A stretch of 64,000 bases of DNA, taken from NCBI RefSeq assembly GCF_000238915.1, contig NZ_BAEG01000008.1, positions 124,001 to 188,000 on the forward strand. Direction: 5' to 3'. Under the pieces are notes generated by a model, which did not search any database, was not told the DNA's origin, and saw only the letters and a list, made by a program, of their open reading frames with translations. Origin of the DNA: Arthrobacter globiformis NBRC 12137 (lineage in GTDB: Bacteria; Actinomycetota; Actinomycetes; Actinomycetales; Micrococcaceae). The stretch's first letter is position 1; each line of letters begins with the position of its first letter. Positions 55,008 through 61,095 of this stretch are shown one piece after another. The position numbers and the translations under genes were made by a program.

Positions 55008-56825
55008 ATGGCCAAGCAGAGTTCATTTTTTCGATCCGTCAGCCGTCTCTATCCGCATATTAAGCCGGTCCTGCCGCGGCTGATCATGGGCCTGCTGTCG
55101 GCACTCCTGGCCAGTGTGGTTGCCCTGACCATCCCGCAGGTACTGCGGGTGCTCATCAACGACTCCCTCCGGCCCGGGGCCACCGCCGGGGCCGTGTGGG
55201 GCTCGGCCGGCCTCATCCTGGCGCTGGGCGTCGCCGAAGCGGTACTGGTTGCCCTGCGCCGCACCTTCGTGATCAACCCGGCAACCACCGTGGAGACCCG
55301 GATGAGGGTCTCGCTTTACGGCCACCTGCAGGACCTCCCCGTCGCCTTCCATGACCGCTGGGGCTCCGGCCAGCTGCTCTCCCGCGCCATGACCGACCTC
55401 AACTTCATCCGGCGCTGGATGGCGTTCGGGGCCATCATGCTCGTGGTGACCACCCTGACCGTGGTGATCGGCGTCGTCGTCATGTTCACCATGAGCTGGC
55501 AGCTGGCCCTGATCTTCCTCGCCGCCGCGGGCCCGGTGATGGTCTATGGCTTCCGTTTCCGCACCCGTTTCAGCAAGGTCACCCGTCGCAGCCAGGACCA
55601 GGCGGGCGACCTCGCCACCACCGTTGAGGAATCCGTCCACGGCATCCGCGTGCTGAAGGCCTTCGGCCGCAGCCGCGAGGCATTGGAGACATTCAACGGC
55701 CAGGCCGAGGAACTGCGCCAGACGGAAATCGCCAAGGCCAGGCACCAGGCCGTCTTCAGCATGGTGGTGACGCTTCTGCCCGAGCTGGCGCTGGGCACAG
55801 GCCTGGTCACGGGCATACTGCTCGCAGCCGGCGGCCATCTCAGCATCGGCTCCCTTGTGGCCTTCTTCGCCACCGCCGCCGTTATCGCGGCGCCCGTGGA
55901 GTTCTCCGGCATGCTGCTGGCCATGGCGCTGACGGCGAAAACGGCGCTGGACCGGCACTTCGAGGTTATGGATTCCCAAAACACCATCACCAGTCCGGCG
56001 GAACCCCGCCGCCCGGCCGACGTCAAGGGCGCGCTGAGCTTCCACAACGTGACGTTCGCGTTCGACGACGCCCCGGACAAACCGGTCCTGAAGGACGTCC
56101 GGCTGGACATCTGTCCGGGCGAGACCATGGCCCTGGTGGGCATCACCGGCAGCGGCAAGAGTGCCCTGCTGCAGCTCGTACCCCGGCTCTACGATGTCAC
56201 CGCGGGTTCCATCACGCTCGACGGCGTCGACCTGCGGGAATTCAGCGTTCAGGAGCTCCGTGCCCTTGTGGCCGTCGCCTTCGAGGACACCACCCTGTTC
56301 TCCAGCTCGGTGCGCGACAATGTGCTGCTCGGCGTCAGGGCCGGGGACGCCGACACCCGGGAGGAAATTCTCGCGGAGGCCCTGGACACCGCACAGGCGC
56401 ACTTCGCCTATTCGCTGCCCGAGGGGCTGGACACCCTCATCGGCGAGGAGGGCCTCAGCCTGTCCGGCGGCCAGCGCCAGCGCCTCGCCCTGGCGCGGGC
56501 CATTGCGGCACGGCCCTCCGTGCTGGTCCTGGACGATCCCCTCTCCGCACTGGATGTGAACACCGAGGAGCTCGTGGAAAACCGGCTGCGGGAGGTGCTG
56601 GCCGGCACCACCACGCTCATCGTCGCCCACCGCCCATCCACCGTGGCGCTGGCCGACCGGGTGGCGCTGCTGGAGGACGGCCGCATCGCCGCCGTCGGAA
56701 CCCATACCGAACTGCTGGCCGGGAACAGCCATTACCGGTACGTCATCGCGAGCCTGGAGACGGAGCCCCGCGACCTGGACTCCGAACTGTCGGCCCTCGA
56801 CGACACAGAGGAGGTCAGCCAATGA
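55008..56825 (+). CDS. ABC exporter half-transporter with degenerate ATPase site
   Basis: A 605-residue membrane-plus-ATPase protein. Six helices precede the nucleotide domain with Walker A GITGSGKSALLQLV, signature LSLSGGQRQRLALARA and Walker B VLVLDDPLSALD. The usual catalytic Glu after Walker B is Asp here, which marks the degenerate site of heterodimeric exporters. Its stop overlaps the next gene (ATGA), whose Walker B is canonical, so the two should pair. The exported substrate is unknown. Confidence 0.93.
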   Translation: MAKQSSFFRSVSRLYPHIKPVLPRLIMGLLSALLASVVALTIPQVLRVLINDSLRPGATAGAVWGSAGLILALGVAEAVLVALRRTFVINPATTVETRMRVSLYGHLQDLPVAFHDRWGSGQLLSRAMTDLNFIRRWMAFGAIMLVVTTLTVVIGVVVMFTMSWQLALIFLAAAGPVMVYGFRFRTRFSKVTRRSQDQAGDLATTVEESVHGIRVLKAFGRSREALETFNGQAEELRQTEIAKARHQAVFSMVVTLLPELALGTGLVTGILLAAGGHLSIGSLVAFFATAAVIAAPVEFSGMLLAMALTAKTALDRHFEVMDSQNTITSPAEPRRPADVKGALSFHNVTFAFDDAPDKPVLKDVRLDICPGETMALVGITGSGKSALLQLVPRLYDVTAGSITLDGVDLREFSVQELRALVAVAFEDTTLFSSSVRDNVLLGVRAGDADTREEILAEALDTAQAHFAYSLPEGLDTLIGEEGLSLSGGQRQRLALARAIAARPSVLVLDDPLSALDVNTEELVENRLREVLAGTTTLIVAHRPSTVALADRVALLEDGRIAAVGTHTELLAGNSHYRYVIASLETEPRDLDSELSALDDTEEVSQ

Positions 56826-58712
56826 GCGCCGCAGCCTTCGGAACTGCCAACGAGGACAATGCCAACCTGAGCAGGAGCGACAGCAAAGCCGTACGACGCC
56901 GGTCGCTCGCCTTGCTGGGGTCGCTGATCCGTCCCGTGCGGCTGAGGTTCTGGCTCACCATTGCCACAGTGGTCCTGTCCCAGGCAGCCCGGGCGGCCGG
57001 CCCGGCGCTTATCGCCTTCGGCATCGACCACGCGCTGCCTTCCCTCCGCGCCGGCAACAACATCCCGCTCGTGCTGACCGGCGTCGCCTACCTGGCTACA
57101 GCACTCGCGGCGGCCGGGCTCACGGCCCTGTATGTGACGTCGACGGCGAGACTCAGCCAGGCCATGCTGCTGGACCTGCGGCTGTGGGTATTCCGCCACA
57201 CGCAGCGGCTCAGCCTTGAATTCCACGAAAGGTACACCTCGGGACGGATCATCGCCCGGCAGACCTCCGACCTTGAGTCGCTGCGCGAACTGCTGGACTC
57301 GGGAGTCAGCTCGCTCGCCTCGGGTGCGCTGTTCATGGTGTTCACCGCCGTCACCGTCTTCGCCCTCGACTGGCCCAGCGGACTGGTGGTGCTGGCCGCG
57401 GCCGTGCCAATGTTCCTACTGGCCCGCTGGTACCAGAAGCATTCGCAGATAGCGTTCCGCCAGTCCCGGGTGGTCTCGGCCCGGCTCATCGTGCACTTTA
57501 TCGAGACCATGACCGGCATCCGCGCGGTCAAGGCCTTCCGTAAGGAGCGCGAAAACGCCGCACGCTACGGCGAACTCGCCGAGGACTACCGGCAGGCGAC
57601 CGTCCGGTCCATCAATCTGAACGGCGTCTTCCAGCCCGGCCTCGTGCTGATCGGCAACGTCTGCGTGGCTGCCGTGCTGCTGTTCGGCGGCTTCCGGGTA
57701 CTGACCGGCGACCTCGCCGTGGGCGTGCTGCTGGCCCTCATGCTTTCCACGAAGCGTTTCTTCCAGCCCGTGGACCAGATGGCCATGTTCTACAACTCCT
57801 TCCAAAGCGCGCAGGCCGCGCTGGAGAAGGTCTCGGGGCTGCTTGAGGAGGTGCCCACGGTGCGCCCGCCGCGGAACGCGGTGGAGCTCCGCAACGCACG
57901 GGGCGCCGTCGAATTCCGGGACGTCGAGTTCCGCTACCGCAACGGGCCGCTCATCATCCCCAAGCTGAACGTCAGCATTCCGGCCGGCCAGACCGTAGCG
58001 CTGGTGGGCCAGACCGGGGCAGGCAAGTCCACGCTGGCCAAGCTGATTGCGCGTTTCTATGACGTGTCCGCCGGTTCGGTGATGCTCGACGGCGTGGACG
58101 TCCGCCAGCTGGCCACCGCGGAACTGCGGCGGAACATCGTGATGGTCACCCAGGAGGCCTTCCTGTTCCAGCGGCTCTGTGGCGGACAACATCGCCCTGG
58201 GCAGGCCGGAGGCACCGCGCGAGGAGATCGAGGCGGCGGCGAAGGCCGTGGGCGCACACGAGTTCATCATGGAACTCCCTGAGGGATACGACACCGACGT
58301 CAACAAACGGGGCGGCCGCGTATCCGCCGGCCAGCGCCAGCTCATCAGCTTCGCGCGTGCCTTCCTCGCCCGGCCGGCGGTGCTGATCCTGGACGAGGCC
58401 ACGTCCTCGCTGGACATCCCCTCCGAGCGGCTCGTGCAGAGCGGCCTCGCCGGGCTGCTGCGCGGAATGGACGGCACCGGACCGGCAGGTGACAGGCCAG
58501 TCGGCGACGGGCCTACTGGCGACGGGACGTCCGGGGGAACCGCCCGTACGGCACTGATCATCGCCCACCGGCTGTCTACAGTGGAGACGGCGGACAGAGT
58601 GCTCGTGGTCCACGACGGCCGGGTGGTGGAGGACGGAACCCCGGACGAGCTGATCGGCGGGAACGGCCGTTTCGCCCGGCTGCACACCGCCTGGAAGGAC
58701 TCGCTGGTCTGA
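56822..58712 (+). pseudogene. ABC exporter half-transporter, interrupted by a one-base frameshift
   Basis: The first frame (to 58282) gives the membrane domain, Walker A GQTGAGKSTLAKLI and Q-loop TQEAFLF, then turns to nonsense. The second frame (from about 58170) continues with [10 protein letters not shown], signature RVSAGQRQL, Walker [14 protein letters not shown] and H-loop IIAHRLST. Dropping one C from CC at 58168-58169 restores [14 protein letters not shown], so a one-base insertion is the cause. It could be a sequencing error or a real lesion. A Gly/Asp-rich insert (about 20 residues) lies between Walker B and the H-loop. Confidence 0.88.
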
Positions 58713-59011: not shown

Positions 59012-59365
59012 TCAGTTACCGCCGAGGCTCTGGTTGTGGATGTTCTGCGTCGCCTGCCCGTCGCCGAACAGGGGCACCCTGGGCTTTCCGGATCCGTCGT
59101 CGGCCAGGTAGTCGCCCCGGCTGTCGTAGCTTTGGACCTGGTTCAGGTAGCCGTGGCGCACACGGAGGCCGACGGCGAAAAGCACCACCGACTCCAGCAG
59201 CGCCGCGATGCCGATCATCCCCCAGACAAAAGTCCCGGCGTCGGCCGTTCCCCTGAACACCTCAACGATTGCGGCACCGGCAGCGGCCGCCACAATCAGA
59301 GACGTGCCGGCAATGGTCCAGAGGAAAAAGGCCCGCTGCAGGCCGTCGGTCGCTCTCCGTGTCAT
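59012..59365 (-). CDS. Small two-helix membrane protein
   Basis: A 117-residue protein with helices at about 12-36 (FFLWTIAGTSLIVAAAAGAA) and 46-66 (FVWGMIGIAALLESVVLFAV), and a polar C-terminal tail of about 45 residues. I do not recognise a family. ATG 59365 follows AAGGAG nine bases upstream. It lies beyond the terminator of the peptide-precursor gene on the same strand, so it is probably transcribed separately, though readthrough is possible. A link with the peptide system, for example as receptor or processing factor, is only positional. Confidence 0.72.
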   Translation of the reverse strand: MTRRATDGLQRAFFLWTIAGTSLIVAAAAGAAIVEVFRGTADAGTFVWGMIGIAALLESVVLFAVGLRVRHGYLNQVQSYDSRGDYLADDGSGKPRVPLFGDGQATQNIHNQSLGGN

Positions 59366-59405
59366 GGTCCCCACTCCTTGGTTACGGCTGCTGTTTGCGG
59401 AAAGA

Positions 59406-59450
59406 AAAACGGCCCCGGAACATGATGTGCGCATGTTCCGGGACCGTTTT
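59406..59450. terminator. Bidirectional terminator after the peptide-precursor gene
   Basis: CCCGGAACATG (59414-59424) pairs perfectly with 59432-59442 around a 7-base loop. AAAACGG (59406-59412) pairs with CCGTTTT (59444-59450) across a single mismatch. On the minus strand it ends in a T-rich run, closing the precursor gene 16 bases after its stop. Confidence 0.92.
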
Positions 59451-59465
59451 CCTCATGGAAGCTGT

Positions 59466-59699
59466 TTACATGGGATCAGGCCAGTTGCCAATGGTGGTTT
59501 CAGACACCATGGGGTCGGGCCAATTGCCGATAGTGGTCTTGTTCACGTCCTGGACGCGCATCGGATCCGGCCAGTTGCCAATGGCAACCGAGGTGCCCGC
59601 GTTGTCCGCAATCGAGCCTGCAGACAGAACGGCGGGAGCCGCAGCAGAAAATGCGAGGGCCCCCGCCAGAACGGCGGCGGCTGCTATCTTCTTCAACAT
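59466..59699 (-). CDS. Secreted peptide precursor with three IGNWPDPM repeats (putative pheromone)
   Basis: The 77-residue product has a Sec signal peptide (MLKKIAAAAVLAGALAFSAA, cleavage likely near APAVLSA). Three identical octapeptides IGNWPDPM follow at 59559-59582, 59508-59531 and 59469-59492, the last at the very C-terminus. Copies 2 and 3 share the wider TTIGNWPDPM. The copies use different codons for Ile, Asn, Pro and Asp, so sameness is kept at peptide level. The start at ATG 59699 has GAGGAA eight bases upstream. It has its own promoter and terminator and is divergent from an XRE-TPR regulator, as in peptide quorum-sensing pairs. The signalling role is inferred. Confidence 0.8.
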   Translation of the reverse strand: MLKKIAAAAVLAGALAFSAAAPAVLSAGSIADNAGTSVAIGNWPDPMRVQDVNKTTIGNWPDPMVSETTIGNWPDPM

Positions 59700-59752
59700 G
59701 TGAGAGTTCCTCAATACGAGTCGGATTCGTTACCAAGTCAGCACAGTCCTTG

Positions 59753-59792
59753 TTGACATACATTGTAAAATGTTTTCCACAGAGGGTGTCAA
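59753..59792. promoter_or_regulatory. Shared promoter/operator between peptide precursor and regulator
   Basis: For the peptide gene (minus strand), TTGACA lies at 59792-59787, with TTTACA at 17 or TACAAT at 19 bases, giving a leader of about 55 bases. On the plus strand another TTGACA lies at 59753-59758, facing the first. A perfect inverted repeat ACATT-GTAA-AATGT (59760-59773) covers the minus-strand -10 region and is the best operator candidate. Confidence 0.6.
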
Positions 59793-59832
59793 GCATTCTG
59801 TACAAAGGCTGTCCGGAATAGGAGGAACCCCA

Positions 59833-61095
59833 GTGGGTAACGGATTCGGGGAGAAGCTCCGCGCTGAGCGGCTGGAGCGCGGACTGACTCAGGCCGAACT
59901 GGGCAAAGACCTGTACTCCCCCAGCTACATTTCTTTGCTGGAGACGGGCCGGCGGGAACCCACAGCCGACGTCATCGAAGAACTCGCCCGCCGGCTCGAG
60001 CTCGCACCCAAGGCCCTGGAAGCATGGAGCCAGCCCATCTCGGTCAGCGACGCCGAATACGTGCTGGCCGGACTCTACGCCCGGCAGGCCTGGGACCTGC
60101 GCGACTACGCCCTCGCTGCCGAGCATGCCGCCAACGCCGCCCGCATCGCCCTCGACGGCAAGAACACCAGCGCCTGGTGGAACATGACCTACATGCAGGC
60201 CGAATGCCTCATGAAACAGGGCCAGCTCAAGGAATGCCAGAAGATCATGGAGCACCTGTCCGAGCACCCCATGGCCACCGAATCGGCCGGCCTCGGTGTC
60301 CGGGCGCGCCAGATGCTCGCCGCCCTGTGCCACGGACAGGGCCAGCTGAGCACCGCCGTTGAACACGCCGAGAAGGCGGTGGAGCTGTGCGCACAGCTGC
60401 CCAAGGGCTCAACGCTGATCATCGGCGCGCTCCGTGCGCTCATCGGTGCGCTGGCCGAGAGCGGCCGGCTGGACGAGGCCTGGAAATACTGCCAGGACAT
60501 GAATGAGCAGATGGACGAGCATTCGATGTCCCAGCTCGCCGGCGAGGTGGCCTGGGTGATCGGGAACGTCGCCTTCATGCGGCACGACTACCCGGAAGGG
60601 ATCAAGCACCACGAGCGGGCGGCCAAGCTGCTCTCCCCCGCCAACGACATCGAGCTGTGGGCCCGCTTCAACAAGGCGTCGGCCGCCGTCCGCCTGTCCT
60701 CCGGAATCGTGGAGCCGGAGACCCTGTCCGCCATTGAACGCGCCGAGCTCGCGCTGTCCATCGTCGGCGGCAACAAGACGGACCAGCTGGAGGTGGCGTT
60801 CATCCGCGCCCGCTGGCTCTATCTCACCGGCGACATCGTGGCCGCAGTGCAGAAGCTCCGTGATATCCACGCCGAACGCGCCGACCTGGCCCGGCACACC
60901 GCCGGCGAAGTCTCGCTGCTGCTGGGCAAGTCGCTGAAGGCCGCGGGCGAAGCTGACGAGGCACTGGTGCACCTGGAGGAGGCGCAGAAGGAGTTCAGCG
61001 CCGCCGGTGCCCAGGACCGCGTCCAGCAGGCCCTCGACGCCGTGCTGGAGATCCGGCTCGCCCAGCGCCGCGCCGCCGCCGCAGAGGCCAGCTAG
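59833..61095 (+). CDS. XRE-family HTH regulator with TPR domain (RRNPP-like)
   Basis: The 420-residue protein has an N-terminal XRE HTH at about residues 5-55 (LTQAELGKDLYSPSYISLLE). A helical array of TPR-like pairs follows to the end, for example ALAAEHAANAARIALDG, QLSTAVEHAEKAVELC and EGIKHHERAAKLL. The length and plan match peptide-receptor regulators such as NprR. GTG 59833 has a strong GGAGGAA site at 59820-59826. It is divergent from a secreted repeat-peptide gene with 133 bases between. Peptide binding is inferred from architecture and context. A strong bidirectional terminator follows. Confidence 0.88.
   Translation: MGNGFGEKLRAERLERGLTQAELGKDLYSPSYISLLETGRREPTADVIEELARRLELAPKALEAWSQPISVSDAEYVLAGLYARQAWDLRDYALAAEHAANAARIALDGKNTSAWWNMTYMQAECLMKQGQLKECQKIMEHLSEHPMATESAGLGVRARQMLAALCHGQGQLSTAVEHAEKAVELCAQLPKGSTLIIGALRALIGALAESGRLDEAWKYCQDMNEQMDEHSMSQLAGEVAWVIGNVAFMRHDYPEGIKHHERAAKLLSPANDIELWARFNKASAAVRLSSGIVEPETLSAIERAELALSIVGGNKTDQLEVAFIRARWLYLTGDIVAAVQKLRDIHAERADLARHTAGEVSLLLGKSLKAAGEADEALVHLEEAQKEFSAAGAQDRVQQALDAVLEIRLAQRRAAAAEAS

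Follow-up and report, generated by a model that had tools for sequence, protein, structure and literature searches.

A repeat-bearing precursor gene divergent from an HTH-TPR gene

The window, by which we mean the whole stretch of 64,000 nucleotides of Arthrobacter globiformis NBRC 12137 that was analysed, contains two divergently oriented genes that an initial annotation, made from the sequence alone, had singled out as a candidate peptide-pheromone system. The smaller gene (59466-59699, minus strand; ORF read from 59699 to 59466) encodes a 77-residue protein that starts with MLKKIAAAAVLAGALAFSAAAPAVLSAGS, and the larger (59833-61095, plus strand) encodes a 420-residue protein. The sequence and the ORF translation bore out the description of the former as a precursor with a signal sequence and three IGNWPDPM octapeptides, the third of which is the exact C-terminus with the stop codon directly after it, and Pfam matches to HTH and TPR families did the same for the latter as a divergent HTH-TPR regulator.

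The signal sequence covers about residues 1 to 27 (59619-59699, minus strand), as judged by eye and with a crude hydrophobicity screen, without a cleavage-site tool. The octapeptide copies lie at 59559-59582, 59508-59531 and 59469-59492, all on the minus strand, and spell the same peptide in three different DNA sequences. By eye, a Shine-Dalgarno-like GAGGAA is found at 59707-59712 on the same strand, and an imperfect hairpin followed by a T-rich tail at 59410-59446 (minus strand) is the likely terminator of the precursor gene; this hairpin is absent from the computed terminator list. No Pfam family matched the precursor. Its sole NCBIfam match, rodlin (E 0.036), fell far below the cut-off and was dropped.

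A chance control was made on 121.6 kb, comprising the window and three loci of the same genome, with a crude home-made signal screen. At least two identical xxWP words occurred in only one of 109 small signal-sequence-like ORFs, which was that of the window. The DNA pattern for GNWPDP matched the A. globiformis genome eight times and the reversed pattern not at all; among 395 genomes of the family, the two patterns were found in 114 and 5, respectively, by hand count from the rows. Synonymous turnover was extensive, with 403 GNWPDP copies written in 68 DNA spellings. Precursors of the genus usually have their last copy at the C-terminus, but this is not a general rule, and in another genus (L119-L124) they carry short tails at their ends.

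The regulator and the intergenic element

The regulator gene starts with GTG at 59833, preceded by a Shine-Dalgarno AGGAGG at 59820-59825 (plus strand). Residues 5 to 64 (59845-60024, plus strand) match the Pfam helix-turn-helix families HTH_31/HTH_3, and residues 121 to 186 match TPR_12. The AlphaFold2 model (mean pLDDT 89.5, pTM 0.78) consists of the HTH domain and a predicted TPR superhelix over residues 71 to 419 (60043-61089, plus strand). In a fold search the model aligned over about 300 to 350 residues with Rap-peptide complexes (Z 25.3-24.7), NprR (Z 22.8) and AimR (Z 21.0), and it aligned equally with TPR proteins of other function, such as APPBP2 (Z 27.2), MalT (Z 26.7) and APC subunits. 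The predicted fold therefore agrees with that of a peptide receptor and is no proof of one. A profile search of PDB sequences reached PlcR through the HTH part only (residues 3 to 57).

Between the two genes, at 59753-59793, lies a near-symmetric element, TTGACA-N28-TGTCAA with GTAAA in the middle, which by its conservation is a candidate operator and divergent promoter region. The outer boxes TTGACA and TGTCAAG and the central GTAAA were kept in at least 90% of 26 aligned rows, and the inner palindrome ACATT-GTAA-AATGT was perfect in only part of them. With up to 3 mismatches allowed, the 22-base core of the element occurred only once in the genome; because there was no second site, we did not predict a regulon. 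A consensus promoter scan found no promoter, and the TTGACA boxes are only suggestive of one. The sole match of an Rfam scan was a tRNA.

Conservation of the pair

A regulator search was run on 59 genomes, namely that of A. globiformis, 36 others of the genus and 22 from other families of the order. An orthologue at least 78% identical was present in 37 of 37 genus genomes. In a search of the family, all 77 genus genomes had an orthologue, and 221 of 395 genomes had a homologue at E <= 1e-20. The exact GNWPDP DNA pattern occurred in 73 of the 77 genus genomes, and the other four carry SGNWPNPM (two genomes), SGNWPYPM or SGNWPYPV beside the regulator.

The initial annotation had named two findings that would refute it: orthologous regulators that regularly lack a neighbouring repeat peptide, and a repeat ORF that is absent or frameshifted in close relatives. 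Among regulators at least 70% identical to that of the window, neither was seen at any of 79 loci (73 of the genus and 6 of a sister genus): every one had a divergent precursor, as did all 30 loci of a first, smaller set, and all 79 precursors passed the crude signal-sequence screen. Addition of 80 named loci raised the count to 159 of 159. These were the best 80 of 298, all from Arthrobacter, Pseudarthrobacter or Paenarthrobacter by record title, and they overlap in species with the 79. Canonical copies numbered one at 8 of the 159 loci, two at 79, three at 38, four at 32 and five at 2.

The pairing thus held for close regulators, but not for the more distant ones. At 51-70% identity the precursor was present at 12 of 16 loci and missing at four, and below 51% identity it was present at 10 of 41 and missing at 31, after two spurious rows (L162 and L167) had been dropped. 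Twenty of the 31 misses fall in one genus group (g45) and five are secondary paralogues in another (g28). At two further ones (L164 and L168) a leaderless 32-residue ORF, ending GIGDWPHAA or GIGDWPHAD, lies upstream of the regulator. The missing precursors below 51% identity are a real limit of the pairing. The HTH-TPR homologues at the g45 loci (among L139-L172) are about 44-50% identical and have no xWP precursor beside them; they are possible orphan receptors.

Covariation of peptide and regulator

The core of the peptide varies with the regulator. Beside [IVTS]GNWPDP[MAV] we found GNWPNPM, GNWPYPM, GIWPDPM and VGNWPDAV, further variants such as PGNWPDS, VGIWPNS, VGDWPH and VGEWPH, and, with more distant regulators, other repeats, for example GNWPNPM, GDWPH and GGSWPT. 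In 147 distinct precursor-regulator pairs, peptide residue 1 was most informative on regulator residues 127, 132 and 167, and peptide residue 6 on residue 128. Isoleucine at peptide residue 1 went with M127/L132/H167 in 76 of 76 pairs; at residue 6, aspartate went with K128 in 137 of 137 and histidine with D128 in 4 of 4.

Because related sequences share their history, a tree was built without the covarying columns. Changes were placed on it by parsimony, branch weights were taken from all other columns, and 280 columns were tested; the p values for residues 127, 132 and 167 rest on 100,000 draws. Peptide residue 1 changed 19 times on the tree. Residue 132 changed together with it in 12 of its own 18 changes (p = 0.00001), residue 127 in 10 of 18 (p = 0.00001) and residue 167 in 9 of 14 (p = 0.00003), all far above expectation and the first two at the floor of the test. 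Residues 127 to 132 are encoded at 60211-60228 and residue 167 at 60331-60333, both on the plus strand. Residues 139 (7 of 17, p 0.004) and 412 (6 of 14, p 0.0025) also showed an excess and lie outside this patch in the sequence. On the tree, the link between peptide residue 6 and residue 128 was not convincing (2 of 4 changes, p 0.15), nor was the signal of the columns linked to peptide residue 8, and residues 129, 164 and 168, high in the raw ranking, had no branch-level excess. An independent-pairs test on well supported branches gave only five pairs, with 0.05 out of reach; the independent pairs listed for residues 127, 132 and 167 all pointed in one direction.

In the model, residues 127-132 and 167 lie at the ends of helices 112-129 and 152-168, which we take to be neighbouring inner helices by the usual TPR geometry. 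That the first residue of the peptide lies near receptor positions 127, 132 and 167 is supported by this covariation, which is only indirect evidence on binding; binding itself is inferred.

Paralogous and distant candidate receptor-peptide pairs

A paralogue without the HTH part, matching the regulator only from residue 57 or later, was found in 18 of the 37 genus genomes, and at all 18 loci it had its own divergent xWP precursor of the GWWPN or a related type. In G000 this paralogue is fused to the Pfam domain DUF7793; the gene for the TPR-DUF7793 protein (L002 1132-3003; G000:C117:24384-26255, outside the window) is divergent from the gene of a precursor whose last residues are IGWWPN. In another genus, words such as IGNWPD and IGDWPN occur in the precursors of six HTH-less homologues (L175-L180). 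The predicted model of one paralogue is a TPR superhelix (pLDDT 93.3) that aligned with LGN (Z 27.6), NprR (Z 20.1) and RapI (Z 19.7); LGN, its best match, is no RRNPPA member. A scan of 81 genus genomes for GWWP(N/D) was discarded, the pattern being too short and the control counts similar.

Outside the family, a class-level profile search found homologues in 12 of 394 genomes at E <= 1e-20. We also read 17 hand-chosen plasmid loci, 14 of Streptomyces and one each of Kitasatospora, Embleya and Dermacoccus. At five of these an ORF with a signal sequence carries IGWP words, in six copies (Kitasatospora), four, three, three, and a single IGWP with one IGWS. The signal-sequence/WP screen found no adjacent precursor at the other 12. 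The Streptomycetaceae precursors are convergent, on the 3' side of the regulator, at four loci and divergent at one, and two of them matched no Pfam family. The proteins at L350 3011-3271, L353 2882-3115, L356 2990-3379 and L357 956-1180, recorded as hypothetical proteins of Streptomyces or Kitasatospora plasmids, have a signal sequence and repeated IGWP words and lie beside an HTH-TPR gene. At ten loci outside the family, the same screen gave clear repeat precursors at two, a single NWP word at one (L333) and none at seven. A precursor with three TVGGSWPT copies lies 88 nt from a regulator of 29% identity (L330), and one with three DISWP copies lies 420 nt from a regulator of 25% identity (L336). 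These two distant precursors and those of Streptomycetaceae passed the crude signal-sequence screen.

Leaderless copies in hosts and in viral contigs

Two further sites in the A. globiformis genome carry the octapeptide, a leaderless ORF with four [RL]IGNWPDPM (L040 16132-16341) and an 81-residue ORF ending ADIGNWPDPM (L041 9659-9904). We read 22 such orphan loci, these two and 20 hand-chosen among the matches listed, and by eye accepted 16 as short leaderless ORFs. For eleven of the 16, the gene that ends 76-91 nt upstream encodes an Ala/Pro-rich protein that looks secreted and ends DPG(S/C)xPD, and the gap contains hairpin-like sequence. The FDPGCSPD protein of L040 matched no Pfam family. 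Two of the 16 (L204 and L211) join IGNWPDPM and IGWWP(N/D) words in one leaderless ORF, and in G020, the source of L204, the precursor of the HTH-less receptor ends IGWWPD. Five matches (L198, L205, L207, L210 and L212) were judged to be chance or unclear, and L197, a fragment beside N, was not counted. At L201 and L202, leaderless VGNWPDPL ORFs lie just upstream of a gene that by eye is glycosyltransferase-like.

The GNWPDPM pattern also occurred in 10 stretches of IMG/VR contigs. Seven of these represent four distinct sequences with a micro-ORF of 10-12 codons and the stop right after the motif: MRIGNWPDPM in L360 with L361 (7213-7242), in L363 with L367 and in L366, and MMSTIGNWPDPM in L362 with L368. 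Three of the four have a GGAG-type Shine-Dalgarno sequence close upstream, at a distance of a few bases; that of L362 is more remote. In L369, a VGNWPDPM end stands behind a membrane-type leader. A wider pattern gave 35 stretches, which beyond L360-L363 and L366-L369 looked like other proteins or chance; L364 and L382 (possible 20-codon ORF) were ambiguous.

In comparisons of L361, L363 and L366 with phage records, the best-covering records were Arthrobacter phages, at the terminase end and with 66-81% DNA identity. Arthrobacter as the host of these contigs is only inferred from such matches, because in two of the searches the majority of matched records, by shorter pieces, came from phages of other hosts (Klebsiella in 113 of 263, Mycobacterium in 190 of 231); in the third search 43 of 80 records were of Arthrobacter. 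L362 was outside this comparison and shares gene types with L363. The right ends of five related GenBank Arthrobacter phages contained GNWP in none of the five stretches, and the micro-ORF is therefore not universal. The viral contigs yielded no receptor homologue, and the phage records no match to the regulator of the window; a Streptomyces regulator had one match there, limited to the HTH end and 12% of its length, which we rejected.

The leaderless copies in hosts and phages suggest an intracellular route that the initial annotation had not foreseen.

Proposed mechanism and alternative explanations

The initial annotation had inferred an actinobacterial counterpart of the RRNPP systems with a multi-copy precursor. 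This reading is supported, because peptide and regulator are paired and covary, the fold is RRNPP-like, a paralogous receptor-peptide pair exists, and similar pairs occur in other families. We consider it probable that the pair is a peptide signal with an intracellular receptor that works like RRNPP systems, in Actinomycetota. The pairing, the conservation of the repeats at the protein level, the covariation and the fold are observations; binding, processing, import and targets are inferred. According to the mechanism that we propose, the precursor would be exported by Sec, a step judged from its sequence, and proteases would then trim the spacers to free IGNWPDPM-like octapeptides. These would be taken up again, probably through an oligopeptide permease, and would bind to the TPR superhelix on its concave side. 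Binding may alter the action of the HTH domain at the element 59753-59793, by which the pair would regulate at least itself. The HTH-less paralogue and its GWWPN-type precursor would form a Rap-like second receptor system, and the leaderless host copies and phage micro-ORFs may be intracellular sources of the same ligand.

For a broader reading the evidence seems to us evenly balanced: W-P peptide signals and their HTH-TPR or HTH-less receptors would form one family that spans the actinomycetes, and the ligand would also arise within the cell from leaderless host ORFs and phage micro-genes. The ORFs that join IGNWPDPM and IGWWP(N/D) would then address both receptors at once, and Arthrobacter phages, through their micro-genes of 10-12 codons, would present an infected host with the signal that it makes itself.

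The peptide could instead be a ligand of the TPR regulator that acts only inside its producer, in an autocrine or export-sensing manner, with no population signal; export might then serve to remove the ligand. ORFs for the same octapeptide without a leader in the same genomes, leaderless viral micro-ORFs, and the leaderless GIGDWPHAA/GIGDWPHAD ORFs upstream of two regulators all speak for this explanation, but we regard it as unlikely, with signal sequences passed by the crude screen in 79 of 79 precursors of close regulators and in the distant precursors. Less plausible still is that the repeats are a secreted effector, for instance an antimicrobial or surface-binding peptide, whose expression the HTH-TPR protein merely controls. 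A signal sequence, repeats and a divergent regulator do fit a regulated secreted product, and so does a gene pair about 0.75 kb beyond the precursor that we named ABC exporter by eye, yet such a product would not be expected to covary on the branches of the tree, at its peptide residue 1, with residues 127, 132 and 167 of the regulator, and neither the leaderless copies in hosts nor the 10-12 codon micro-ORFs in viral contigs suit it. That the WPDP word acts in translation, as a ribosome-arrest leader, or as another cis-acting device without a free peptide is in our view very unlikely: very short ORFs ending WPDPM exist in viral contigs and hosts and arrest peptides are known to contain Trp-Pro and Pro-x-Pro words, but such a device does not account for multiple spaced copies inside exported precursors, for covariation with a trans-acting regulator, or for the hairpin between the precursor gene and the next gene on the same strand in the window.

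Relation to known systems

Genetically encoded peptides with intracellular TPR receptors have been described for Bacillota. The Arthrobacter pair resembles the RRNPPA systems of that phylum (PlcR-PapR, NprR-NprX, Rap-Phr, AimR-AimP, Rgg-SHP, ComR-XIP) in having HTH-TPR or HTH-less TPR receptors, the regulator of the window having its HTH, a domain that Rap lacks, at the N-terminus ahead of the predicted TPR superhelix, and in the small propeptide gene adjacent to the receptor (present at each of the 79 loci with at least 70% identity), its export being predicted only. It differs in its phylum, in peptides built around a W-P core, in the leaderless copies elsewhere in the genome and in the occurrence of the peptide without a receptor in viral contigs. 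Propeptides with up to 8 repeat copies are known among RRNPPA systems, as the accessible part of one report states (PMC11343458). The pheromone gene of Bacillales lies immediately downstream of the receptor gene, according to the portion available of another (PMC9765709), whereas the precursor gene in the window is divergent. The likeness of the TPR part is at the level of the fold, which unrelated TPR proteins share, and by sequence only the HTH reaches PlcR. The pair works like RRNPPA systems in our reading; with fold-level TPR homology, another gene order and another phylum, descent is left open.

As far as the partial sources go, leaderless short ORFs that carry a signal are also a feature of LCP-RopB of Firmicutes. 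The Arthrobacter leaderless ORFs differ in being additional to a precursor with a signal sequence, in being unlinked to the receptor, and in lying behind an Ala/Pro-rich secreted-looking protein gene in 11 of 16 cases. In the arbitrium system (AimR-AimP) of Bacillus phages, to the extent that our material covers it, the phage encodes both the receptor and a short signal peptide. The viral contigs described here share the peptide gene but have only the micro-ORF for a host-type peptide, with no receptor homologue found in them or, for the window regulator, in the phage records.

Cell-density signalling in Actinomycetota is represented by the gamma-butyrolactones, named for Streptomyces (PMC13220807, available in part). 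The excerpts at hand describe these as small molecules made by enzymes (PMC10075063, PMC13220807), as signals of the phylum typically are (PMC10075063). The available portions of PMC10075063, PMC9765709, PMC12700828, PMC11343458, PMC13220807 and PMC13419125 report no RRNPPA-type system in Actinomycetota, and a text search limited to open-licence PMC articles returned no account of W-P peptides or an actinobacterial RRNPP system; papers with letter matches to the peptide words were unrelated by title. Our results point to a hitherto undescribed peptide-signal family of Actinobacteria that phages seem to carry as well. If it extends over Arthrobacter, other Micrococcaceae and, as is probable, Streptomyces, such a family would make peptide control accessible in this phylum to direct tests with inexpensive synthetic octapeptides, and the residue code (I, V, T or S against residues 127, 132 and 167) makes its specificity directly testable. 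If phage micro-genes do copy the host signal, they would be a very compact tap into host signalling.

Neighbouring genes in the window

Downstream of the precursor gene, beyond the hairpin, lies a small membrane-protein-like ORF (59012-59434, minus strand). The ABC exporter gene pair, so named by eye, occupies 55008-58712. Its second gene (56822-58712) reads as two frames that overlap (56822-58282 and 58179-58712), suggestive of a frameshift or an assembly error.
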